Part shown: piece by piece, positions 3,691 to 64,000 of the stretch | How positions within the stretch are numbered: position 1 is the first letter of the stretch | Layout of the letters: every line of letters starts with the position of its first letter | DNA from: Prunus persica | Taxonomy: Eukaryota; Streptophyta; Magnoliopsida; Rosales; Rosaceae | Assembly: GCF_000346465.2 (NCBI RefSeq) | Contig: NC_034009.1 | Coordinates: 15,478,950-15,542,949 of the forward strand | Length of the DNA stretch: 64,000 bases | Direction: 5' to 3' | Translations under genes and position numbers: made by a program | Notes under the pieces: generated by a model | Databases searched by the model: none | What the model saw: the letters and a program-made list of their open reading frames with translations, nothing else | What the model was told of the DNA's origin: nothing

Positions 3691-6036
3691 GAAACGCAGT
3701 TGCTCCAATCAAGTTTTGCAAAGGCAATATCTATAGGAGGGAATATGGCTACAGTCTTTTCAGAATCCCAATATCTTTTCGGATCCCCATATTTTCTTTC
3801 CCAGATTCCAAAACTTCACGTGGCCTCCATTAATGTTTGTCGGCACTTTCGGCGTTTTCAAAGTATTATTTTCGTCAAAAGCCGATCTTGCTTTGCGGAT
3901 TTCACGGAGCTACTTTTTCAAAAGTATCCCGAGAATCTCGCAATTTTCCTATGGTTAATTTGAAATTCACCGGTTTTACCTATTCATCTTATTTGTGTAT
4001 AAATGTGTTACTAACGAAATTTTCTTTGCAGAAGACATCCAGTTTTCTCCATACCTAGTGATGCGATATCTACTTGTTTTTCTTATCAGTGAGCACTTAA
4101 TATGCCCGAGAAGCAAGACTATCTCTGATTATCCATTCAGGAAGCGAGACTATCCCTGATCACGTTTCCGCTACATTAGGAAACTGTGAAGGCGATCTTA
4201 TGCTCTAATCTCCGGAAGTCCTTTTAGACTAGGAGATATGAGAGCTTATTGTCTGCTCCCACCAGCTTCCTTCCCTGATTGCTTACCTTCTCTTTTTGCA
4301 TTTTTTCTCTTTCTGTAACTCTCTGAGGATTATTTATTTTTGACAGAGAAAAGAGTTTGTGATTTTACTCTTGCAGGATATAACTAGATCATCAAGCGCT
4401 ACATTTACTGGGCCGATACAAGCTTGAATGATACTTGAGAAAAGTTTCTCCCACCTAAGGATGTAAGCAATACTTGTGTTATTTTTTTGCTTATATACTT
4501 ATTTGATATTTTATCTTGAAAGGTAACCAAATGGGAAGATAAGTCCGTTCCAAAAGAATGGCTTGTATGTATCCATGAATTATTAAATGCAAATTTTACA
4601 GATTGCAAGTTGGATACATTGATAATACACTGCCACAGATTAAAGTCCCATAAGAACAGAATATGGGTATAACAGTGATCAATATGATGCACGCCTGTTG
4701 CGTAGCAAATAATATGGATTGAAGTCCCGAAAGGACAATCCTTTAACATGTCAATATTGAGATTATGCACGCCTAATGCGTAGCAAATTATATGGGTTAA
4801 AGTCCCAGAAATTAATTGACATGTATGTATTAATCTGTGGCATACCTGCAGCATGATAGATATATGGGTGCACGCCTGTTGCGTAGCAAATGATATGGAT
4901 TGAAGTCCCGAAAGGACAATCCTTTGACATGTCAATATTGATATTATGCACGCCTAATGCGTAGCAAATTATATGGGTTAAAGTCCCATAATATGAGTTA
5001 AAGTCCCAAAAATTAATTGACATGTATGTATTAATCTGTGGCATGTCTGCAGCATGACAGATATATGGGTTCTAAATGTTCCAACTCCCTAAATGGAGAT
5101 TTTCCACGCCCTATGTAAAATAACGCTCCATTGGAGGTTATAATCCACATTCTCACATAATAAAAGCCCCCTGAAGTGGCTTGGGTACCCAAAAGCAAAG
5201 AAATGCTTATAATTGATGCATGCGCATGCACATGAGAATGGTGGGATCATGAATTGATGAATGAGAATTTTTGATCATGAATTGATGAACGACAATTTTT
5301 TTTGTTTTTGGAGTAGCTACTCAAATCATCAATGGGCTGTGTTGATTGGAACCACGTTCAATTATTAAGTGTCGACAATATCATTGGCCAAAATGGAACG
5401 AGGTAATTCCATTATAAATGAGAATGAACGTGAAAGAACAAACCCACAATACGAACCCCAAAATTTGTTAATACTGAATTTATACTTGGGTGTTCGGAAT
5501 AAAAGGGAATATACCTACTTTGCATGACACACTGTTTCTGGCAGAAACAAGGAATGTTGGGCTTTCTCCATATTTACAGATTCAATTGTGCCCCCCCTTA
5601 TTACACAATTACGGAGACCAACATATTATCTTTGAGGGTTATTAAATGCACAGAGCATATCGCCAGAAGCGATTCCCTAAAGATGTATAAATAGCTGGGT
5701 TAAAGCTATATAATGTGTCATAAAGTTTAATCCCCTTTTAGACAAAATCCGTTGAGAGGATTGACAATTGCATAAAGCAAGTCCTTAAAGGACATGTGCT
5801 TGAAGCACAAAATTTGTACTCAATATTAATATGCATAAATTACCTCAGTGAGTACATTGATGTGATTGCAACATATTAAAGATTCTGCAGAATTCATGAA
5901 ATATTTGTCTCGATCGAGCATTATACCAACGAAATTCTTGCTTATACTAAGAAAGTATTGAAGCATTTTTAAGAGGATTATCCGTTGGACACTTTAATGA
6001 TTTTTCGGAAGTATACTAGACCAAATAGAGCTCAGC
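3691..6036 (+). other. LARD-1 conserved backbone, 3' half
   Basis: Collinear with LARD-2 from about 49500 to 51900. No protein of the retroviral type is encoded. The segment includes the tandem duplication at 4688-5050 and a short C tract near 5589 that is much longer in LARD-2. Short frames on the minus strand around 4405-5231 are repeats of the same phrase and not genes. Confidence 0.7.
4688..5050 (+). repeat. 181-bp tandem duplication in LARD-1 backbone
   Basis: The phrase TGCACGCCTGTTGCGTAGCA starts at 4688 and again at 4869, giving a 181-base period, and the sequence that follows matches over the whole unit with a few changes. Each unit itself holds two related half-units ending in 'ATGGGTTAAAGTCCC' or 'ATGGATTGAAGTCCC'. 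LARD-2 has a single unit at about 50640-50820, so the duplication arose in the LARD-1 line. Confidence 0.8.
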
Positions 6037-55567: not shown

Positions 55568-56220
55568 CACTACTACAAAAAGTGAAAAAGACGACCAGAA
55601 AACAACGACGGTCTAAGTGAAAACCGTCGTGGTTTATAAAAAGACGACGGTTCTAAAAACACCGTCGTGTAATACAACCTTAGACAACTAAAAAATGGAG
55701 TTTCAAATGGCTGTTCAAAAACAACGACGTACATAATTAAACAACCGACGTCTATTTGAAACAGATTTCCGCAGTGTAAAATCAATGCCAACAAAGAACG
55801 GCAGAAGTTATGAATCGACCGACGTAGAAAGTAAAGACGACGATTTCAATAAAAACTGCCGTTTTTACTCATAAAATAACACGACGAGGTTTTCGTATAA
55901 GACGCCGTATAATTACAAACAAATCCACGGCTTTAAAATACAAAATATCGCCGTATTAAATTAATTTACAACGACGGAAAATATAAATATAACGACGTCA
56001 TTCTCGTATAGTTCTACGACGTTATCTTTAAATCGTACAATAAAATTTATCGTCGTATTTATTCATTTTATACGTCGTACCTTTAATTTTAACGGTCGTC
56101 TTAATAAGAATTTTTGTTAACAATTTATTTCTTTGATTTTCTTATCCTACGTCGGTAGATCTACTTAATGACAAGAATTGAAATAACCACGACGGTTTAT
56201 ATAGAACACCGCCGACATAA
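55568..56220 (+). repeat. CACTA left terminus and subterminal motif array
   Basis: After the terminal CACTACTACAAAAAG, motifs such as AACGACGGT, ACCGTCGTG, GACGACGG, CGTCGTAT and ACGTCGG recur every 20-40 bases in both orientations. Several form inverted pairs, for example ACGACGGT at about 55603 with ACCGTCGT at about 55623, and GACGACGGT at about 55643 with ACCGTCGT at about 55660. In En/Spm, short subterminal repeats are bound by TNPA; here I infer a similar role. Confidence 0.8.
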
Positions 56221-56338
56221 TCAGATTTGTCTGAGATCCCAAGGGTTACGAAATCTTACCAGATGGAACTCTGTTCCACATCATAATCTTAACAGATGAC
56301 ACAGATTTGCAAATATTGCGTCGTGTTAGTTTACAAAT

Positions 56339-57665
56339 TCTAGAACATTAATTTCCCTCATTTTAAATTTCCTCGGGAAAGAAAAATCTATTTATCACGC
56401 TTTGGAATTGAAAACTAAAACTGAAAGAATACGGGAAAAAAAACTCTATTTATAATTTAAAATTAAAATCCACGTCGGTTGTAGTACACTTAACGACGTT
56501 TAACAAAATAATCTACGTCGGTAATTATAAATCTACCGCCATCTTAACTTAATATAGACGACGATAAAAGACGACGGTAGAACAGAAAACCGCCGTTGTT
56601 TCAGTTTCTTTAACATATCTTTCTGCAGGACTTGTGTAGTTCAAAGCATTGACAATGTCTTCATCATATCTCCCAGAAACTACTGATTCAATTGCTCATG
56701 CTTTAGAGGCCATCTGAAGCCATTTCTATTCTTTATCGCATTCTTGAAACCCATCTTCTTCTTCTGAAGCTCTACGGATAAAGGAAGAGGCTATCACAAA
56801 TCCGACGGATCTTCTTAGGCAAGAAAATCAAGGAGAGGATCAGGCACATCTGATCTTCAGATTTCCCTGAGAAGCGAACTTTCCTTCGACAGCGAGTGGA
56901 GGCCAGGCTTGCATCTCTTTTGATGGAAAGCAAGGAGTATTCAGAAGCACTAAGTGTCCTATTTGATGCGAGTAAGCTCAATTTCTCTTTGAGAAAGACA
57001 TCCAAATTATTGTCTTTGAGACATGAGAGACTGAGAGAGGAAGAACTTGGAACCTTAAATGTAAACCGAAAATGAATGAAAGCGACAAATTTATAGAATA
57101 AATTTTTAAAACCAACGGCGGTCCTTACAAAAAAAACGCCGTTTAAATTGTAAAATCAACGTCGGTATGATAGACGTATATTACAGGAATCCACGTCGGT
57201 AAATTAATAAAAACGACGTGTTAAATAATCTACCATGACGCGAGTTATTACTTATGTACTTTAATTTTTGAGTTTATTACGACGGTACCTACAAACTACT
57301 GTCGTATTTATTTACCACGTCCGAAGTTAAATGTACCGTCGTATTTTGTAATTTATACGTCGTAGTTATATGTAACCGCCGTATTATTTTTTTGAAATGG
57401 TTTTATATGTAAGCAACTTTTCGTCTACTTGACTTACACATTAGTTGTTTTTATATTCTTATTTTATTTAAATCTGTCATCCAAAAAAGAAACTTTACAT
57501 ATTGCAGAATATTAATTTCCTTCGTTTTAAATTTCCTCCGGAAAAAAAACTCTATTTATAACGCACTGTAATTGAAAAATAAACTGAAAGGTCACGGGAA
57601 AAAAAATTCTATTCATAATTTAAAAATTAAAATCCACGTCGGTTATATTAAACCTAACGACGTTA
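56339..57665 (+). repeat. direct repeats inside the CACTA element flanking the RPN6 fragment
   Basis: A segment of about 160 bases at 56339-56505 (TTAATTTCCCTC, TTTAAATTTCCTC, AAAACTCTATTTATAA, AAAATCCACGTCGGTTG) recurs at about 57505-57665. A second pair with the phrase CCGCCGTATTATTTTTTTGA lies at about 57376 and 57735, 359 bases apart. These duplications bracket the captured gene fragment and show local segmental duplication within the element. Confidence 0.75.
56619..57060 (+). pseudogene. RPN6: captured fragment of 26S proteasome subunit RPN6 (PSMD11) gene
   Basis: After a splice-acceptor-like TTTCTGCAG, ATG 56655 starts a frame with SSSYLPETTDSIAHALEA, followed in the same and another phase by SEAISILYRILE and EALRIKEEAI. 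It then skips to EKRTFLRQRVEARLASLLME and SKEYSEALSVL, ending with SKLNFSLRK. These match the N-terminal part of plant RPN6, a lid subunit of the 26S proteasome. About 65 residues between the two blocks are missing. There is a stop after HALEA and at least one frame change. The fragment has almost no ACGACGG motifs, in contrast to the element DNA on both sides, in line with foreign origin. Confidence 0.85.
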
Positions 57666-57781
57666 AATGAAATGATTCCACGTCGAACGAAAAATATTGC
57701 GTCGTGTTAGTTAAAAACGACGTAGTTAAATGTAACCGCCGTATTATTTTTTTGAAATGGTTTTATATGTAAGCAACTTTT

Positions 57782-57962
57782 CGACTTACACATGCACTGT
57801 TTCCAAACCCGATTAAAAATTTCAATCTCCCAGAGAAACCTTTTCGTCTTTTTTCCTTGTCAGAGCATTGTCAGAGTTTCTCATCGTCTTCCTCTCGTCT
57901 TCTTCGTCGTCTCTGAACTTAAACATCGATCATCTTCCTCTTGCTTTCATTGCACGCAAAAG
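57782..57962 (+). promoter_or_regulatory. probable 5' untranslated exon and promoter region of the CACTA gene
   Basis: A CT-rich stretch poor in the ACGACGG motif ends in AAAAG followed by GTAAGC at 57963, a good splice donor. The next acceptor is TTTTCACTTGCAG at 58634, 14 bases before the start codon. I infer a non-coding first exon and a 672-base leader intron (57963-58634). The transcription start is not identified. Confidence 0.55.
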
Positions 57963-58648
57963 GTAAGCTTTCATTTTCACTATTTTGGTTACTGTTTTGC
58001 ATGCTCATACGTTTTTTGTTTGAAAAATCTTTTGACCTTTTTTCTGGCCAAAATCATTTTACTTCTTTCCAAGTTTGATAAAATATACAGACAAAGAGGG
58101 AAAGTTTCCAACTTTGAAGACAACTACATCAACTAAATAAGACGACGGTAGACCACGACGGTTCGTCAGTTGTTCTAGCGTCGTCTGAAAATTGACAAAG
58201 TTGTTTTTAAAATAATAGTCTTTTTTTATATGCTTGTTTAATTGCAGGTTTGATTTCTCTGAACAATGGTTTTTATTTTTCCCTTATTTGATAAAATATA
58301 AAGAAAAAGAAACTAGGGTTAATATCTAATATAGACGACAAAATATCTTATTGTTTTACGTCGTGTGAATGTTAATACCACGACGGTGTATTACTATTGA
58401 CGTCGTATGAACATAAATACCACGACGTTATATAAATAATAGTTTACCACGACGGTGTATTACTATTGACGTCGTGTGAACATATATACCACGACGTTAT
58501 ATAAATAATGGTTTTAAACATTTATTACGTCTGAGATTATTTCATTGCGTCGTCTAAAATCATATCATACGTCGTATTTTTTTAATACCGTCGTTTGTGT
58601 TCTTAATGTTTTCCTGAAATATTTTCACTTGCAGTTTTGTCTGTTAAA

Positions 58649-61600
58649 ATGGTTTCTCAACAACAAACTAAGGATTCTGGCTCCAAGAAGCTTGGAATGG
58701 TAGCTCCTCAAGACAAGTCTTCGAAGGAGATGAAGTCTTCGAAGAAGATGAAGTTTGCTTCATCATCTGCTGAGACAGAACAAACCAGCCAGACAACAAT
58801 CTCTGATGATTCAAAGACTGGTCGAGGTATGAGCACAATGCCTCGTGTTGTGAAGAGAAAGCTTCAGAAACTGAGGCCAATTGTTGAGTACAATAAAAGG
58901 GGGAAAGGTGTTGGCCAAGCACATATTGAGATGCAGTCGTATATTGGTGTGTTGGCACACTCCAGGATCCCACTTGTGGACAAGAAATGGTCCCAAATCC
59001 CCAAGGATATAAAGGAGCAGATTTGGGAAGCAGTTGACATGGCTTTTGTCGTAGGCCAAGGGGGCAAGACCTCTGTTTTAGCTTCTGCTTCCAAGAAATG
59101 GAAGGATTTCAAGTCTACACTAACGAGGCATTATATCCTTCCATACACCAATGACAGGGAGAAATTAAGCCAACCCCCTGAAACATATAAATTCATAGAG
59201 AAAGCACAATGGGATGCCTTTGTAGCTTCAAGGCTATCCAAAGATTTTGAGTCTGTGCATTCTCAACATGCACAGATTAGGGAGAAACTCGAGTACAATC
59301 ATCGATTGTCTCGAAAAGGATATGCTGGATTGGAGGATCAATTGGAGGAAACCATGCCTGGGGTAGAAATTGATCGATCTACCTTATGGAAGAGAGCTAG
59401 ACAGGACAAACATGGTAACATCCCTGATCCAAAGGTGGCAGAGAAAGCAAAATTAATTGTAAGCCTACTCACTCTGTTTTAAATTTTTATTAAACTGTGA
59501 ATTATTCTTATTACGTCGTATGTTATATTTTTTGTCGTGTGAATGATATTACCACGTTGAGAAGTTTTTAAAACGTCGTTAACGGTCTAAATAGGAATCA
59601 CTACTCTGTTTTCTTTAATTATAGCATAAGACGTCGGTTGTTTATTCATTTCGTCGTTTTAAATAAATAACCACGTCGGTGTAACTACCGTCGTGATAAG
59701 TTATAATAACGTCGGTTTATACGTTATTGCGTCGTGTGAAATTATATAATACGTCGTTTGTACATAAATAACCGTCGTGTGTTTTTTTGTTTATCTTTTT
59801 TTAGGATGAATTGCAGAAACAAGTCTCGGAAGGCAAAGTCAGAGTAGATGGCAGCAATGATGTGCTGACCATGGCTTTGGGCCCCGAGCATCCAGGCAGA
59901 CTGAGGGGAGTTGGTGCTGGTGTTTCCCCAAGGCAATATTTCAATTTGCCCAAACCACAGAGGTTGAGCTTTGACGACCGTTTGAAGGACAGTTTAAGAG
60001 TTCTCCTTCAAGAAGAGACTAAAAAGATGGAGGCTAAGGCAAGGGAAGAGGCCTTAAGGATGGAGGCTAGGACAAAACAATTGGTAGAGGCTGAGAGGGA
60101 GCATTTCCTGAGTCAGCTTTCCCAATTAATTCCCAATTTTGATCCAAGCATGCTTAAACCAAGAATTAGCCAAAGCCCCAAAAATTCAATGTCTGACAAA
60201 GCTAGCTGCTCTGAAGGTGATGTGAGATCCCTACATTTGGAGGATGATACTGCCAAAATGGGGAAACATCAGCCAGATGAAGAGAAGGAAGAAGAAAAAA
60301 GAGATGAAGAGAAGGAAGAAGAAAATGAGAAAGAAGATGAAGAAAAGCATGACGACAAGGTATGTTCACATAACTTTGCCTTTTTTATTTGTTTTTCAAA
60401 ATTTCAGACGTCGATATTTTTATATAATCCGTCGTTTGTTTAAAACTTAGACGGCGGACTTTTTTTAAGACGTAATAAAATATTTAAACGACGATTTTTG
60501 CACTGTCGTTTAAATGGTTTCAGACGACGCTTTATTAATAACACCGTCGTCTTTATTGAATTACCACGACCGTTTTTTCACCGTCGTTTAAATCCTTTTA
60601 AGACGACGTTTTATTCCTTAAACCGTCGTCTTTATTGAATTACCACGTCATTTTTTTTATTTCTTTAAACAGGTTATTGAAGTTGGTGCTTATTCAAATA
60701 TGGAGGCGCCATCTTCTTTAAAAACCCTTTGTCGTTTTGTGGAAACGACACTCCTGCCTGAGGATAAGACACTCCAATTTACAATTGATAAGGAGGTGTT
60801 TGGTGGTGAGCGCGATACCTTCCTCCTGCCTGAAGATATTACACAATTTGCAGGCATGGAAGAAATTGGAGCTACTGTATTGGCTGTATATATGAGGTTT
60901 GTACTTCTAAGATAATAACTCGTTGGTTTATATATTGCGTCGTCTTAACTAACTAACCACATCGTCTTAACTAACTACCGTCGTGATAATATATTATAAC
61001 GTCTTATCTATTTCAGTACGTCGTGTGAATATATAATACGTCGTTTTTTTATACATAACCGTCGTGTTTGTTTTTGCTGACTTGTTTATATTATTTTATG
61101 TATTTAGGTACTTACACGATGTTTTGAAACAAGCCAATATGTGCAGCATGGTTGGCTTTATTGACCCTGCTACAGTTAGTGCCAACTCTGGCACAATAAC
61201 TGAAAGATCACGACTGGTAGCAGCTCGACTTCAGAAGACAGACGGTGAACAGCTTTTCATGATGCCTTACAATCCAGGGTTAGTCTCCTTAGGATTGTGT
61301 TTTTATGATTTTCAATAAATGACAGATTATAAACTAACCACGTCGGTGTTTTATTTTATTTAGTCGTTTGAAACTACTAACCACGTCGGTATTTATTTGT
61401 CGTCGTGATAAATGTATAATGTCGTCGTTATCTACTTTATTTCGTCGTGTGAAATACTATAATACGTCGTTTTTGTAAATAACCGTCGTTTTTATATTAA
61501 TTTTGTGCAGCCGTCATTGGATCTTGCTGATTGTAAGAGCAAAGAAGGAGACCGTCTATTTTCTGGATCCTCTGCCAGGTCATCGTGTGGTCGACGAAGA

Positions 61601-62067
61601 GGCGAAAAACATCGTGAACAGTGCTTTAAAAATATATAATACCCACATAGGCCGAGCAGGACGTAAAAATGTAATTTGGAAAACTCTCTCAGGCACACCA
61701 AAGCAACCCAGCAATGTCGAATGCGGGTATTATGTGATGCGCTTCATGAGGGACATCATCATGGATCCTTCCTTGGGGTTTGAGAATAAGGTAAGAAGAA
61801 ATTACCTTCATACATTTCACGTCGTTTTTTGTATTATCAACGACGGTCATGTAAAATTAACGTCGTTGAATGGATATACTACGTCGGTTATGAAAAATAT
61901 CGTCGTCTGTGATTGAATTTCTTTTTATTTATAAACCCTAATAGTCATTGTTTATGCAGTATGCCAAGGGAAACCAGGAAGCTTCATACCCCCAAGAAGC
62001 CATTGATGAAGTCCGGAATGAATGGGCAGAGTTTGTTTTCCAAATTATTAAACAGGGCAATTATTGA
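58649..62067 (+). CDS. CACTA-borne Transposase_24 / Ulp1-protease protein, six coding exons, intact
   Basis: Exons 58649-59458, 59805-60359, 60673-60896, 61108-61278, 61511-61790 and 61960-62067 join with GT-AG introns and matching phases to 715 codons plus stop, without internal stops. Exon 1 (about residues 85-265) resembles the plant Ptta/En/Spm transposase domain (PF03004): GQAHIEMQSYIGVLAHSRIP, VLASASKKWKDFKSTLTRHY, WDAFVASRLSKDF. Exon 2 has a helical Lys/Glu/Arg-rich stretch and a strongly acidic-basic repeat. Exons 4-6 form a C48 (Ulp1) cysteine-protease domain with H589 (RHWILLI), D606 (YFLDPL), Q652 and C658 (VECGYYVMRF). It may bind element DNA and remove SUMO-like modifiers. Start ATG is the first after the acceptor. 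Confidence 0.82.
59459..59804 (+). repeat. intron 1 of the CACTA gene, filled with ACGTCG-type motifs
   Basis: In 346 bases I count about a dozen motifs of the CGTCG/CGACG type, for example TTACGTCGTATG, AAAACGTCGTTAA, CCACGTCGGTG, ACCGTCGTGAT and TACGTCGTTTG. The intron starts GTAAGC and ends TTTTTTTAG. The other introns (60360-60672, 60897-61107, 61279-61510, 61791-61959) have the same character. Confidence 0.85.
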
Positions 62068-63364
62068 ACACTTGATATTTATGTATAATGTACAAATTTT
62101 CTCTATAATATGTAATGTAAAAATTTGTTGAGGTTTTCTTAAATTAAAAAAAAAACAAACATACAAATTGCTTAACCGACGTGTAATACTTTTCCAACGA
62201 CCTAATAAAGTCAAAAACCGTCGTATTTTGTTGTTTCGTGTTTTAAACAAATACGACGTAAAAATATAGTTAGACGACGTTCTTTGAACAATTGAGTCGT
62301 TTAAGGTTTACAACATCTTCAATTTCTTAAAGGTTCAGGGTATCATCGAAGACGTTTATGTAACGACAGCGGTTAAGTCGTTGATATATATATTTTACGT
62401 CGTATAGGTAAATAGCCGCCATGGTTTCTCATTTTAACGACGTCATTTTAACGACTTAGTAGTCTATTACAATTTACAACGTCTACAATTTATTAACACC
62501 GACGTGGTTTGTTGTTGTGGTAAGAATATTTTATTATTTTTATATCAAAATATTCAAAATAAATTTAAAATAAATCAGAAAATTGAAAAGTCAACTCCTA
62601 TGAAGTCATTGATATATTTTCTTCCACATAAACCTTGAAAAAATTCATTTTGAATAACAAAAATTTAAAATGACCATCCAAAACAAAATTATTTTGATGA
62701 GTCATAAAATCACTTCTAGTTTTATGGTTTAGGGTTTAGAGTCTAGGGTTTAGAGATTAGGGTTGTTATTTATTGGGGTTTATTTTTAAAGTATAATTTT
62801 TGGGTAGTCTAGGGTATATGTTAGGCTTTAAAACCATAAAACCTTTTATAAACTTAATTTTTTAAATTGTATAATTTAGTTTTATGGGTTTAGGGTATTA
62901 ATTTTTAACGACGGTGGTTGCGTCGTGGAATACATATTTTACGTCGTACAGAAAAACATACGACATGGTTTACTCTTTAAACGACGTCATTTTAATATGT
63001 AAGTCGGTTTATATAATTTACAACGTCTTTAATTTCTTAACACCGACGTGGTTTTTCAGTCGTCGTTATATAAAAAATTCAAAATAAATTTAAAATTAAT
63101 CCGAAAAATGAAGCTTCAAAATGAACGGCCTTACGTTCTTAATCCGAAAAATGAAGTTTCCGTCGTGGAATATTAAATTTACGTCGGTACGTGTAGAACT
63201 TTCGCCTTGGTTTTTCTTTCGACGTTTTAAAACGCGCGAACTCTAAAAATTTTCGCGCGACCTAAATTTTTTTAGATTTGGCTCTTATTCTTATACTTCG
63301 AACCCTGAAACCTAAAATTTTCAGATTTCGCACGACATAACTATTTGATCTTGTCATTTTCCGC
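62068..63364 (+). repeat. CACTA 3' region: motif-bearing non-coding DNA with a telomere-like patch
   Basis: Motifs (AACCGTCGTATTT, ACGACGTAAAA, CCGACGTGG, CCGTCGTTAT) are spread through this stretch at lower density than at the ends. At 62725-62770 there are several near-copies of the plant telomere unit (GGTTTAGGG, GTCTAGGG, GATTAGGG). The phrase AATCCGAAAAATGAAG occurs twice near 63100 and 63145. No gene is visible. Confidence 0.65.
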
Positions 63365-63755
63365 TATGGAGAAAATGATGGGGAGCAAATAGTACCTACG
63401 AAGGAAGAAACTGATAATGAAGATGGGGATTCGAGTGATGATTCTAGTAACGATTCGAGTTATATTAGGTTGTTTTGTTAAAGGGTTTTATGTGTATGCT
63501 TTGCGATCTGTTAATAATGTGCTTATAGGTATGGGTTCATGGATTTTCTGTTTAATGGGTTCATGGATTACATTATCTGTTATGTTGAATTGGGAATGGA
63601 TTTAATTTTGTCGTATCTTTTAATCACCCTATGTTATGTTGAATTGGGAATGGATTTATTGTTTTCATGCTTGGTTTCATGTATATGTTGGTTTCTTGCT
63701 TGGTTTCATATATATGTTGTGTTCTTAATGGGTTTTGTGTTCTTGAAAATAAACT
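63365..63755 (+). other. possible gene fragment with acidic serine stretch in CACTA 3' region
   Basis: One phase reads YGENDGEQIVPTKEETDNED, then GDSSDDSSNDSSYIR, a plausible acidic exon ending near a possible donor at about 63470. The following 250 bases are T-rich, with the sentence-like repeat 'TATGTTGAATTGGGAATGGA' at about 63580 and 63635. They look like an intron or untranslated region. This could be another captured piece; I cannot identify the source. Confidence 0.35.
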
Positions 63756-63950
63756 GAGACACGACGAATTTTAAGGCATACGACGACGATTACACGACGG
63801 TTTTTTTAAACTACCGTCGTTGTATTACTTATACACGACGGTTTTTTCATAAACCGTCGTTTGTATTACTTATAATAGACGACGTCTGTTGAAAATCCGT
63901 CGTCTATATATGCCAAATACGTCTGTTTTTGTTTAAAACCCGTCGTCTCT
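63756..63950 (+). repeat. right subterminal motif array of the CACTA element
   Basis: Inverted pairs are dense: CACGACGGTTTTTT with ACTACCGTCGTTG (about 63794-63822), ACACGACGGTTTTTT with AAACCGTCGTTTG (about 63833-63862), and TAGACGACG with CCGTCGTCTA (about 63879-63907). Their density equals that of the left end, so the right terminus should be close, at 63996 or just outside the window. Confidence 0.75.
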
Positions 63951-64000
63951 GTTGTGTATTACTTGCGATTAGATCATTGTATAATCTGCTATAGTGATGG

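Follow-up and report, generated by a model that had tools for sequence, protein, structure and literature searches.

A CpG motif lattice spaced at about two helical turns in the non-coding DNA of a peach CACTA transposon

In the En/Spm system of maize, TnpA binds in a methylation-sensitive manner to sites that are confined to the subterminal regions of the element and are irregularly spaced. VANDAL21 of Arabidopsis is a Mutator-like element. Its protein VANC21 binds a short motif in introns, intergenic DNA and terminal non-coding DNA, not in exons, and methylation is lost (PMC5735166). Here, we examine a CACTA transposon of peach that begins within C1:15478950-15542949, a stretch of 64,000 bp from a genome of 227.5 Mb in 192 contigs; this stretch is referred to as the window, and all positions of the element are counted from its first base, including those beyond its end. 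The element carries two genes, a TnpA-like gene (gene 1) and a TNP2 transposase gene, and most of its non-coding DNA holds a CpG-bearing motif, CGWCG (W = A or T), that recurs at about 21 bp or multiples of this distance. A previous sequence-only reading of this DNA had noticed the motif and regarded its spread through introns as unfamiliar, which fits En/Spm. VANDAL21 does have such a layout, although the word "spacing" is absent from PMC5735166, so that no 21-bp lattice is described there.

Density and spacing of the motif

The commonest forms of the motif were ACGACGT, ACGACGG and CCGACGT, with their complements. Across the whole element, 138 CGWCG were found in 7,691 non-coding bases (omitting a captured piece of the host gene RPN6) vs 2 in 5,314 coding bases. 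We also counted six-base cores (ACGACG, CGTCGT, ACGTCG, CGACGT, CGACGG, and CCGTCG) against 200 dinucleotide shuffles, in which the introns keep their very high CpG content, so that the control is a harsh one; CpG observed/expected was 2.81 in the coding introns vs 0.37 in the exons. The five coding introns (1,271 bases) contained 54 six-base cores, compared with a shuffle mean of 5.6 and maximum of 15, the leader intron (669 bases) contained 24 (mean 1.2, maximum 6), and the 5′ 1,053 bases contained 34 (mean 3.9, maximum 11). A further 17 were present in 57061-57815, and three blocks on the 3′ side contained 12, 13, and 17. As the intron cores were far above the shuffles, composition or CpG richness alone was rejected as their cause. 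The earlier claim of a motif dense in both subterminal regions, the leader intron, the coding introns and the 3′ region, and denser in introns than composition predicts, was thus borne out. Sites were not confined to the subterminal regions: the coding introns held 35 CGWCG and the leader intron 13, and density was higher in introns (24-30 per kb) than at the two ends (21 and 19 per kb).

The exons of gene 1 contained no six-base core in 2,148 bases. As only 0.26 were expected from exon composition, this count equals chance; the avoidance of exons proposed earlier cannot be demonstrated, and active avoidance was rejected. The same exons had been said to hold partial matches only, which is correct for the six-base cores but not for the five-base motif, one complete copy of which lies near 61594. 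The RPN6 piece had rightly been called nearly motif-free, with 1 six-base core in 440 bases, and the 55,567 bases of flank contained 23, or 0.4 per kb. Six-base cores were absent from 62521-62905 and 63261-63755, and CGWCG from both TNP2 introns (101 and 84 bp), so the motif occupies most of the non-coding DNA rather than filling it as first described.

Along the element, a 5′ subterminal block with 22 CGWCG (55568-56620) is followed by the RPN6 piece and by 11 CGWCG in 57061-57815, 5′ of gene 1. The leader intron (57966-58634, limits placed by eye) holds 13, intron 1 (59459-59804) holds 10, intron 2 (60360-60672) 8, intron 3 (60897-61107) 5, intron 4 (61279-61510) 7, and intron 5 (61791-61959) 5. 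Beyond gene 1, 16 CGWCG lie in 62068-63260, broken by the first of the two deserts (62521-62905). The second, motif-free desert (63261-63755) lies 5′ of TNP2, and the densest block, with 10 CGWCG in 205 bp (63756-63960), stands directly before that gene.

The sites had been described as recurring every 20-45 bases or so. Recurrence was indeed regular, but the distances were quantised near 21, 42, and 63 bp. Measured centre to centre, neighbours most often lay 20-22 bp apart (42 of the 137 gaps), with further peaks near 40-44 and 60-66 bp; each of 11 blocks contained gaps of 19-22 bp. In-phase gaps (19-23, 40-44, or 60-65 bp) numbered 76, compared with a mean of 18.4 and a maximum of 32 when sites were placed at random within the same blocks (2,000 runs); when paralogous blocks were left out there were 48, vs a mean of 11.6 and a maximum of 24 (2,000 runs). 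In longer gaps, a degenerate site often occupies the place that the phase predicts: four of the five bases matched at 21 of 45 phase-predicted places vs 2 of 158 off-phase places. Since 21 bp is about two helical turns, each site lies on the same face of the helix as the one before it.

This spacing was not specific to the one copy. The sister sequences L033-L037 and L039 share it (L033, for example, has 59 in-phase and 12 off-phase gaps), and a three-site lattice pattern matched the genome 811 + 863 times, whereas its reversed control matched 0 + 0 times. Among neighbour pairs no more than 24 bp apart, L033 retained the exact length in 27 of 28, with 2,269 of 2,682 for (overlapping) control 21-bp intervals. 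A 21-bp tandem unit was rejected as the origin of the spacing: the spacers of adjacent units were no more alike (identity 0.385 in 15 pairs) than those of distant units (0.382), with 0.368 expected from composition, and so the spacing is not a remnant of such a unit.

Divergence of motif CpGs and block copying

We then compared copies of the element. Nineteen were fetched (L010-L028), of which L018 (rearranged) and L026 (2,879 N) were dropped, leaving 17 plus the window copy for an alignment of 18. Non-coding motif CpG columns carried 60 singletons in 476, vs 256 in 5,104 for background columns (Fisher p 1e-9), and transitions made up 51 of the 76 differing cells at motif CpGs vs 195 of 513 at background sites. 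The singleton excess is as would be expected if inserted copies are methylated, and the transition bias would fit the same. Variants shared by at least two copies were rarer at motif CpGs (shared:singleton 5:60 vs 73:256, p 0.006).

Against the sister sequence L033, with columns of local identity <0.7 excluded, motif CpGs differed in 6 of 264 cases, compared with 180 of 3,409 for background (p 0.028) and 11 of 133 for other CpGs (p 0.008). Non-coding motifs were intact in L033 in 58 of 64 cases (8/8, 7/8, 28/31, and 15/17 by block), vs 78% of control 5-mers. In the sister comparisons, some columns at exon borders where L033 has extra sequence were assigned to exons because of their position; the unexpected "exon motif" counts of 7/32 and 6/32, in two rows of the comparison among several sisters, arose in this way. 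In a McDonald-Kreitman-type comparison, the fixed:singleton ratio was 6:60 at motif CpGs vs 180:256 in background (odds ratio [OR] 0.14, p 8e-8), and it was reduced alike in introns (4:28 vs 88:81, OR 0.13, p 2.8e-5) and in the 5′ and 3′ blocks (2:32 vs 92:175, OR 0.12, p 3e-4). Motif CpGs thus acquire more private mutations yet show fewer differences between subfamilies, which points to purifying selection on them, intron sites included. Conservation of motifs between copies while the intervening bases vary, which the sequence-only reading had set as a test, held in the diverged copies.

Parts of the lattice have been copied within the element. Introns 1, 3, and 4 share a block of ~180 bp, in which motif bases differed in 8 of 198 cells vs 195 of 734 for background (both directions counted). 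All six other self-similar pairs also had fewer differences at motif bases than in background, strongly in some (such as 0/30 vs 53/336) and weakly in others. Intron 1 is the site of an extra 119-120 bp, a repeat of intron sequence, in 15 of the 17 aligned copies, and the leader intron holds a 70-bp tandem pair (58376-58445 / 58445-58514). Together, block paralogy, the low number of motif differences and the preserved pair lengths indicate that blocks spread by duplication and that motifs were kept afterwards, with the spacing of the motifs probably kept too. Self-similar blocks and tandem duplications are also what a functionless, decayed satellite or tandem repeat, CpG-rich by chance, would contain. 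However, the likeness of adjacent spacers does not exceed that of distant ones, and the motif CpGs mutate faster than their surroundings yet diverge less, which makes this origin extremely improbable.

The same copying bears on a second alternative, in which the lattice has no function beyond transposition and self-regulation, as in the classical role of TnpA, and internal sites are duplicated terminal sites, kept to titrate or autoregulate gene 1. The TnpA-like nature of gene 1, the site density of both ends and the copying of blocks within the element agree with this, as does another CACTA family of the genome, described below, whose array stays outside the introns of its gene. In opposition, the intron sites are as constrained as those in the 5′ and 3′ blocks and lie more densely than those at the ends, and sites that were mere by-products should decay at CpG speed. 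We therefore consider a role restricted to transposition and self-regulation unlikely, while giving it more weight than any other alternative.

The element, its genes and its relatives

The element lies between 55568 and coordinate 69012, a length of 13,445 bp that extends beyond the window end; the part inside the window (55568-64000, forward strand) opens with CACTACTACAAAAAG. The terminal inverted repeats are CACTACTACAAAAA at 55568 and its complement, which ends at coordinate 69012, and a 3-bp target duplication, CCT, is present on both flanks. The sequence-only reading had ended the element near 63950, short of the TNP2 gene. Starting at coordinate 64052, this gene comprises three exons, its open frame runs to 1,054 residues, and its product contains Transposase_21 (4.2e-96), DUF4218, and Transpos_assoc domains. 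With its terminal inverted repeats, 3-bp duplication and TNP2-type transposase, the element belongs to the CACTA (En/Spm) superfamily.

Gene 1, on the forward strand, was rebuilt from splice sites as six exons spanning 58649-62067 (58649-59458, 59805-60359, 60673-60896, 61108-61278, 61511-61790, and 61960-62067, the last with the stop), preceded by a putative leader exon at 57816-57965, the limits of which were read by eye. The coding sequence of 2,148 bases gives 715 residues without an internal stop. A Pfam scan identified Transposase_24 (PF03004, residues 185-312, 3.1e-13) and Peptidase_C48 (PF02902, residues 580-710, 3.3e-13), with no match to DUF1985 at E up to 0.1, and a PDB search returned only weak matches of Ulp1/SENP type (E 0.1 and above). 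A second gene with a plant Transposase_24-type protein is thus present, as in the TnpA-type accessory systems of En/Spm. Compared with L033, the ratio of nonsynonymous to synonymous divergence (dN/dS) of gene 1 was 0.35 (dS 0.165), consistent with constraint.

The RPN6 piece (56621-57060, forward strand) derives from the gene for 26S proteasome non-ATPase subunit 11. For 56881-57006 this origin was confirmed: a PCI-domain proteasome chain was the top match (2e-7), and 26S non-ATPase subunit 11 came next. The piece is highly repeated in the genome, with 977 first-look candidates, of which 150 were scored. In the alignment of 18 copies, no other part had as large a share of shared variants (16 shared, 34 singletons), so that it behaves as if unconstrained. 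The desert at 63261-63755 showed large length differences between copies at 63341; it is possibly the TNP2 promoter region.

Searches with other parts of the element indicated a high copy number: the 5′ end gave 1,073 first-look candidates and exon 1 gave 894, and those that were scored (40 and 142, respectively) were without exception 99-100% identical. The sister sequence L033 (C3:15012500-15022300) is a mosaic, its TNP2 part ~99% identical to the window element and its gene 1 half ~83-91%, which suggests recombination between subfamilies. In L038 (C2:1792796-1796346), the gene 1 copy is broken in exon 2 by an inverted 3′ end of its own family, ~95% identical to element positions 13445-11395, so that one family copy sits in or adjoins another.

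Another CACTA family, L029 (C2:6406500-6416400, reverse), has a TNP2 protein 42% identical to that of the window element over 717 residues and carries a different CpG-rich array, GCGCGA / CGTCGC, in its non-coding DNA. Of the 55 overlapping matches to this array, 36 lie at 63-923, 5′ of its other gene, and 17 at 3832-4413, in the interval that separates this gene from TNP2; of the remaining two, one falls in an apparent exon and the other in TNP2. The array has no clear 21-bp period and is absent from the introns of the upstream gene, as read by eye; three pieces of that gene matched no Pfam family above the curated cut-off, and the gene is hence not classed here as TnpA-type. Filling of introns is therefore not shared by every CACTA family here, and the idea that every such family of the genome has the lattice was rejected. 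L030, L031, and L032 showed no CGWCG array in the stretches examined, whose ends and accessory genes were not located. L032 (C1:39841000-39850900, reverse) represents a third CACTA family, in which CTAGTCA words without CpG are repeated (16).

Alternatively, the binder could be a host factor that the element exploits, such as a CpG-dependent regulator keeping it open or transcribed. The motif is short and CpG-based, as this would lead one to expect. The different array of L029, however, suggests family-specific recognition, and the flank contains 28 CGWCG in 55,567 bases, none of them 19-23 bp apart. We regard a host factor as quite improbable.

A candidate binding lattice and its precedents

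In the reading that we favour, a DNA-binding protein would recognise CGWCG once every two turns, always from the same face of the helix, and the non-coding DNA of the element, its two deserts excepted, would be a lattice of candidate sites for it. It is very probable that selection maintains the motif as a site bound in double-stranded DNA. As the gene 1 protein is TnpA-like (Transposase_24 plus a Ulp1-type domain) and constrained, it is the natural candidate for the binder and would load cooperatively; that it binds the motif is likely, with less assurance. Sites at the ends would aid assembly of the transposition complex, while those in introns and intergenic DNA would allow the protein to activate the element, or to maintain its activity, with sequence specificity, as VANC21 does for VANDAL21, and the two CpGs per site could make loading methylation-dependent. 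The density and phasing of the motif, the selection on its CpGs and the copying of blocks were observed directly; the binder, its cooperativity, the anti-silencing and the methylation dependence are inferred. Anti-silencing is favoured because intron sites are as constrained as the others, though transposition needs the ends only, and because the VANC21 layout offers a precedent; for the whole chain, anti-silencing included, we lean only slightly towards its being correct. The earlier proposal that the whole length of the element had become a binding array is well supported for most of the non-coding DNA, but not for the TNP2 gene or the two deserts.

Several observations weigh against the favoured reading. 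The lattice was not found in the long TNP2 gene. CGWCG in the coding introns (59459-61959) is strand-biased, with 31 CGTCG to 4 CGACG, an imbalance not expected of a signal that acts in double-stranded DNA only; shared descent of introns 1, 3, and 4, together with the U-richness of plant introns, may be the source. Such a bias would suit a signal at the RNA level, either through intronic CGUCG in the pre-mRNA of gene 1 or through hairpins formed by adjoining sites. However, the lattice also lies outside introns and there takes both orientations (49 to 53 over all other blocks), the U-richness could by itself produce the bias, and neighbours 17-23 bp apart were in the same orientation in 30 cases and opposite in 28, on which grounds hairpins were rejected. 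An RNA-level signal is thus very improbable. To the same list of difficulties for a DNA-binding lattice belong two of the six other self-similar pairs, in which the difference between motif and background was small (6/45 vs 75/349 and 3/25 vs 26/175), and one pair in which other CpGs were kept better than motifs (1/54 vs 8/85). The aligned copies are the best matches of one search, mutually related and not a random sample, and the singleton and L033-difference sets cover overlapping but non-identical columns. When motifs were defined on L033, L036, and L039 instead of on the window copy, intron motif CpG differences rose to 7/139, 7/115, and 6/111 vs background rates of 0.081, 0.083, and 0.077, and between L033 and L039 the contrast vanished (motif CpG 4/132, background 32/979). 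A single-sequence structure model of gene 1 exon 1 alone was useless (mean predicted local distance difference test score 42), and the identity of the binder is something that we infer.

A more specific form of the favoured reading is that whole-element anti-silencing evolved here independently of VANDAL, through a TnpA/Ulp1-type protein that polymerises on a helically phased CpG lattice, running through introns and intergenic DNA with a site every two turns, and with the CpGs as a methylation gate; we offer this tentatively, and think it rather less probable than otherwise. If true, such a polymerising system would help explain the very high copy number of the family and its near-identical copies. 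If the favoured reading is correct, two unrelated superfamilies of plant DNA transposons would have converged on intron and other non-coding motifs for an element-encoded anti-silencing protein. The strict two-turn spacing would then be an addition relative to VANDAL21, and it makes the idea directly testable, because one can alter the spacing, the orientation or the CpG status of the sites separately. In addition, the element provides a natural high-copy test of the retention of CpG motifs by selection vs rapid CpG decay.

Among the systems compared, L029 is alike in combining TNP2 with a CpG-rich non-coding array, and differs in its motif, in lacking a clear 21-bp period and in having gene introns free of the array. 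En/Spm is alike in being a CACTA element in which a TnpA-like gene accompanies a transposase of TNP2/TnpD type and CpG-bearing repeats lie near both ends; its TnpA sites are subterminal only, whereas those of the peach element also fill introns and intergenic DNA at ~21 bp. VANDAL21 has a Mutator-like transposase, in contrast to the TNP2 of the peach element. The VANDAL21 motif is YAGTATTAY, without CpG, whereas the peach motif is CpG-bearing; VANC carries DUF1985, while the gene 1 protein has Transposase_24 and Peptidase_C48 instead; and demethylation has been demonstrated for VANC21 (PMC5735166), while for the peach element anti-silencing is a prediction. Arrays of VANDAL21 (Hiun) change by tandem duplication (PMC5735166), like the 119-120 bp and 70-bp repeats seen here, although no tandem unit underlies the 21-bp spacing. 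In both systems, the motif lies in introns, intergenic DNA and terminal DNA and is absent from exons, and the presumed binder is encoded beside the transposase (PMC5735166). By this analogy, we regard VANC21/VANDAL21 as the closest precedent for the peach lattice, and the resemblance between the two is probably convergent.

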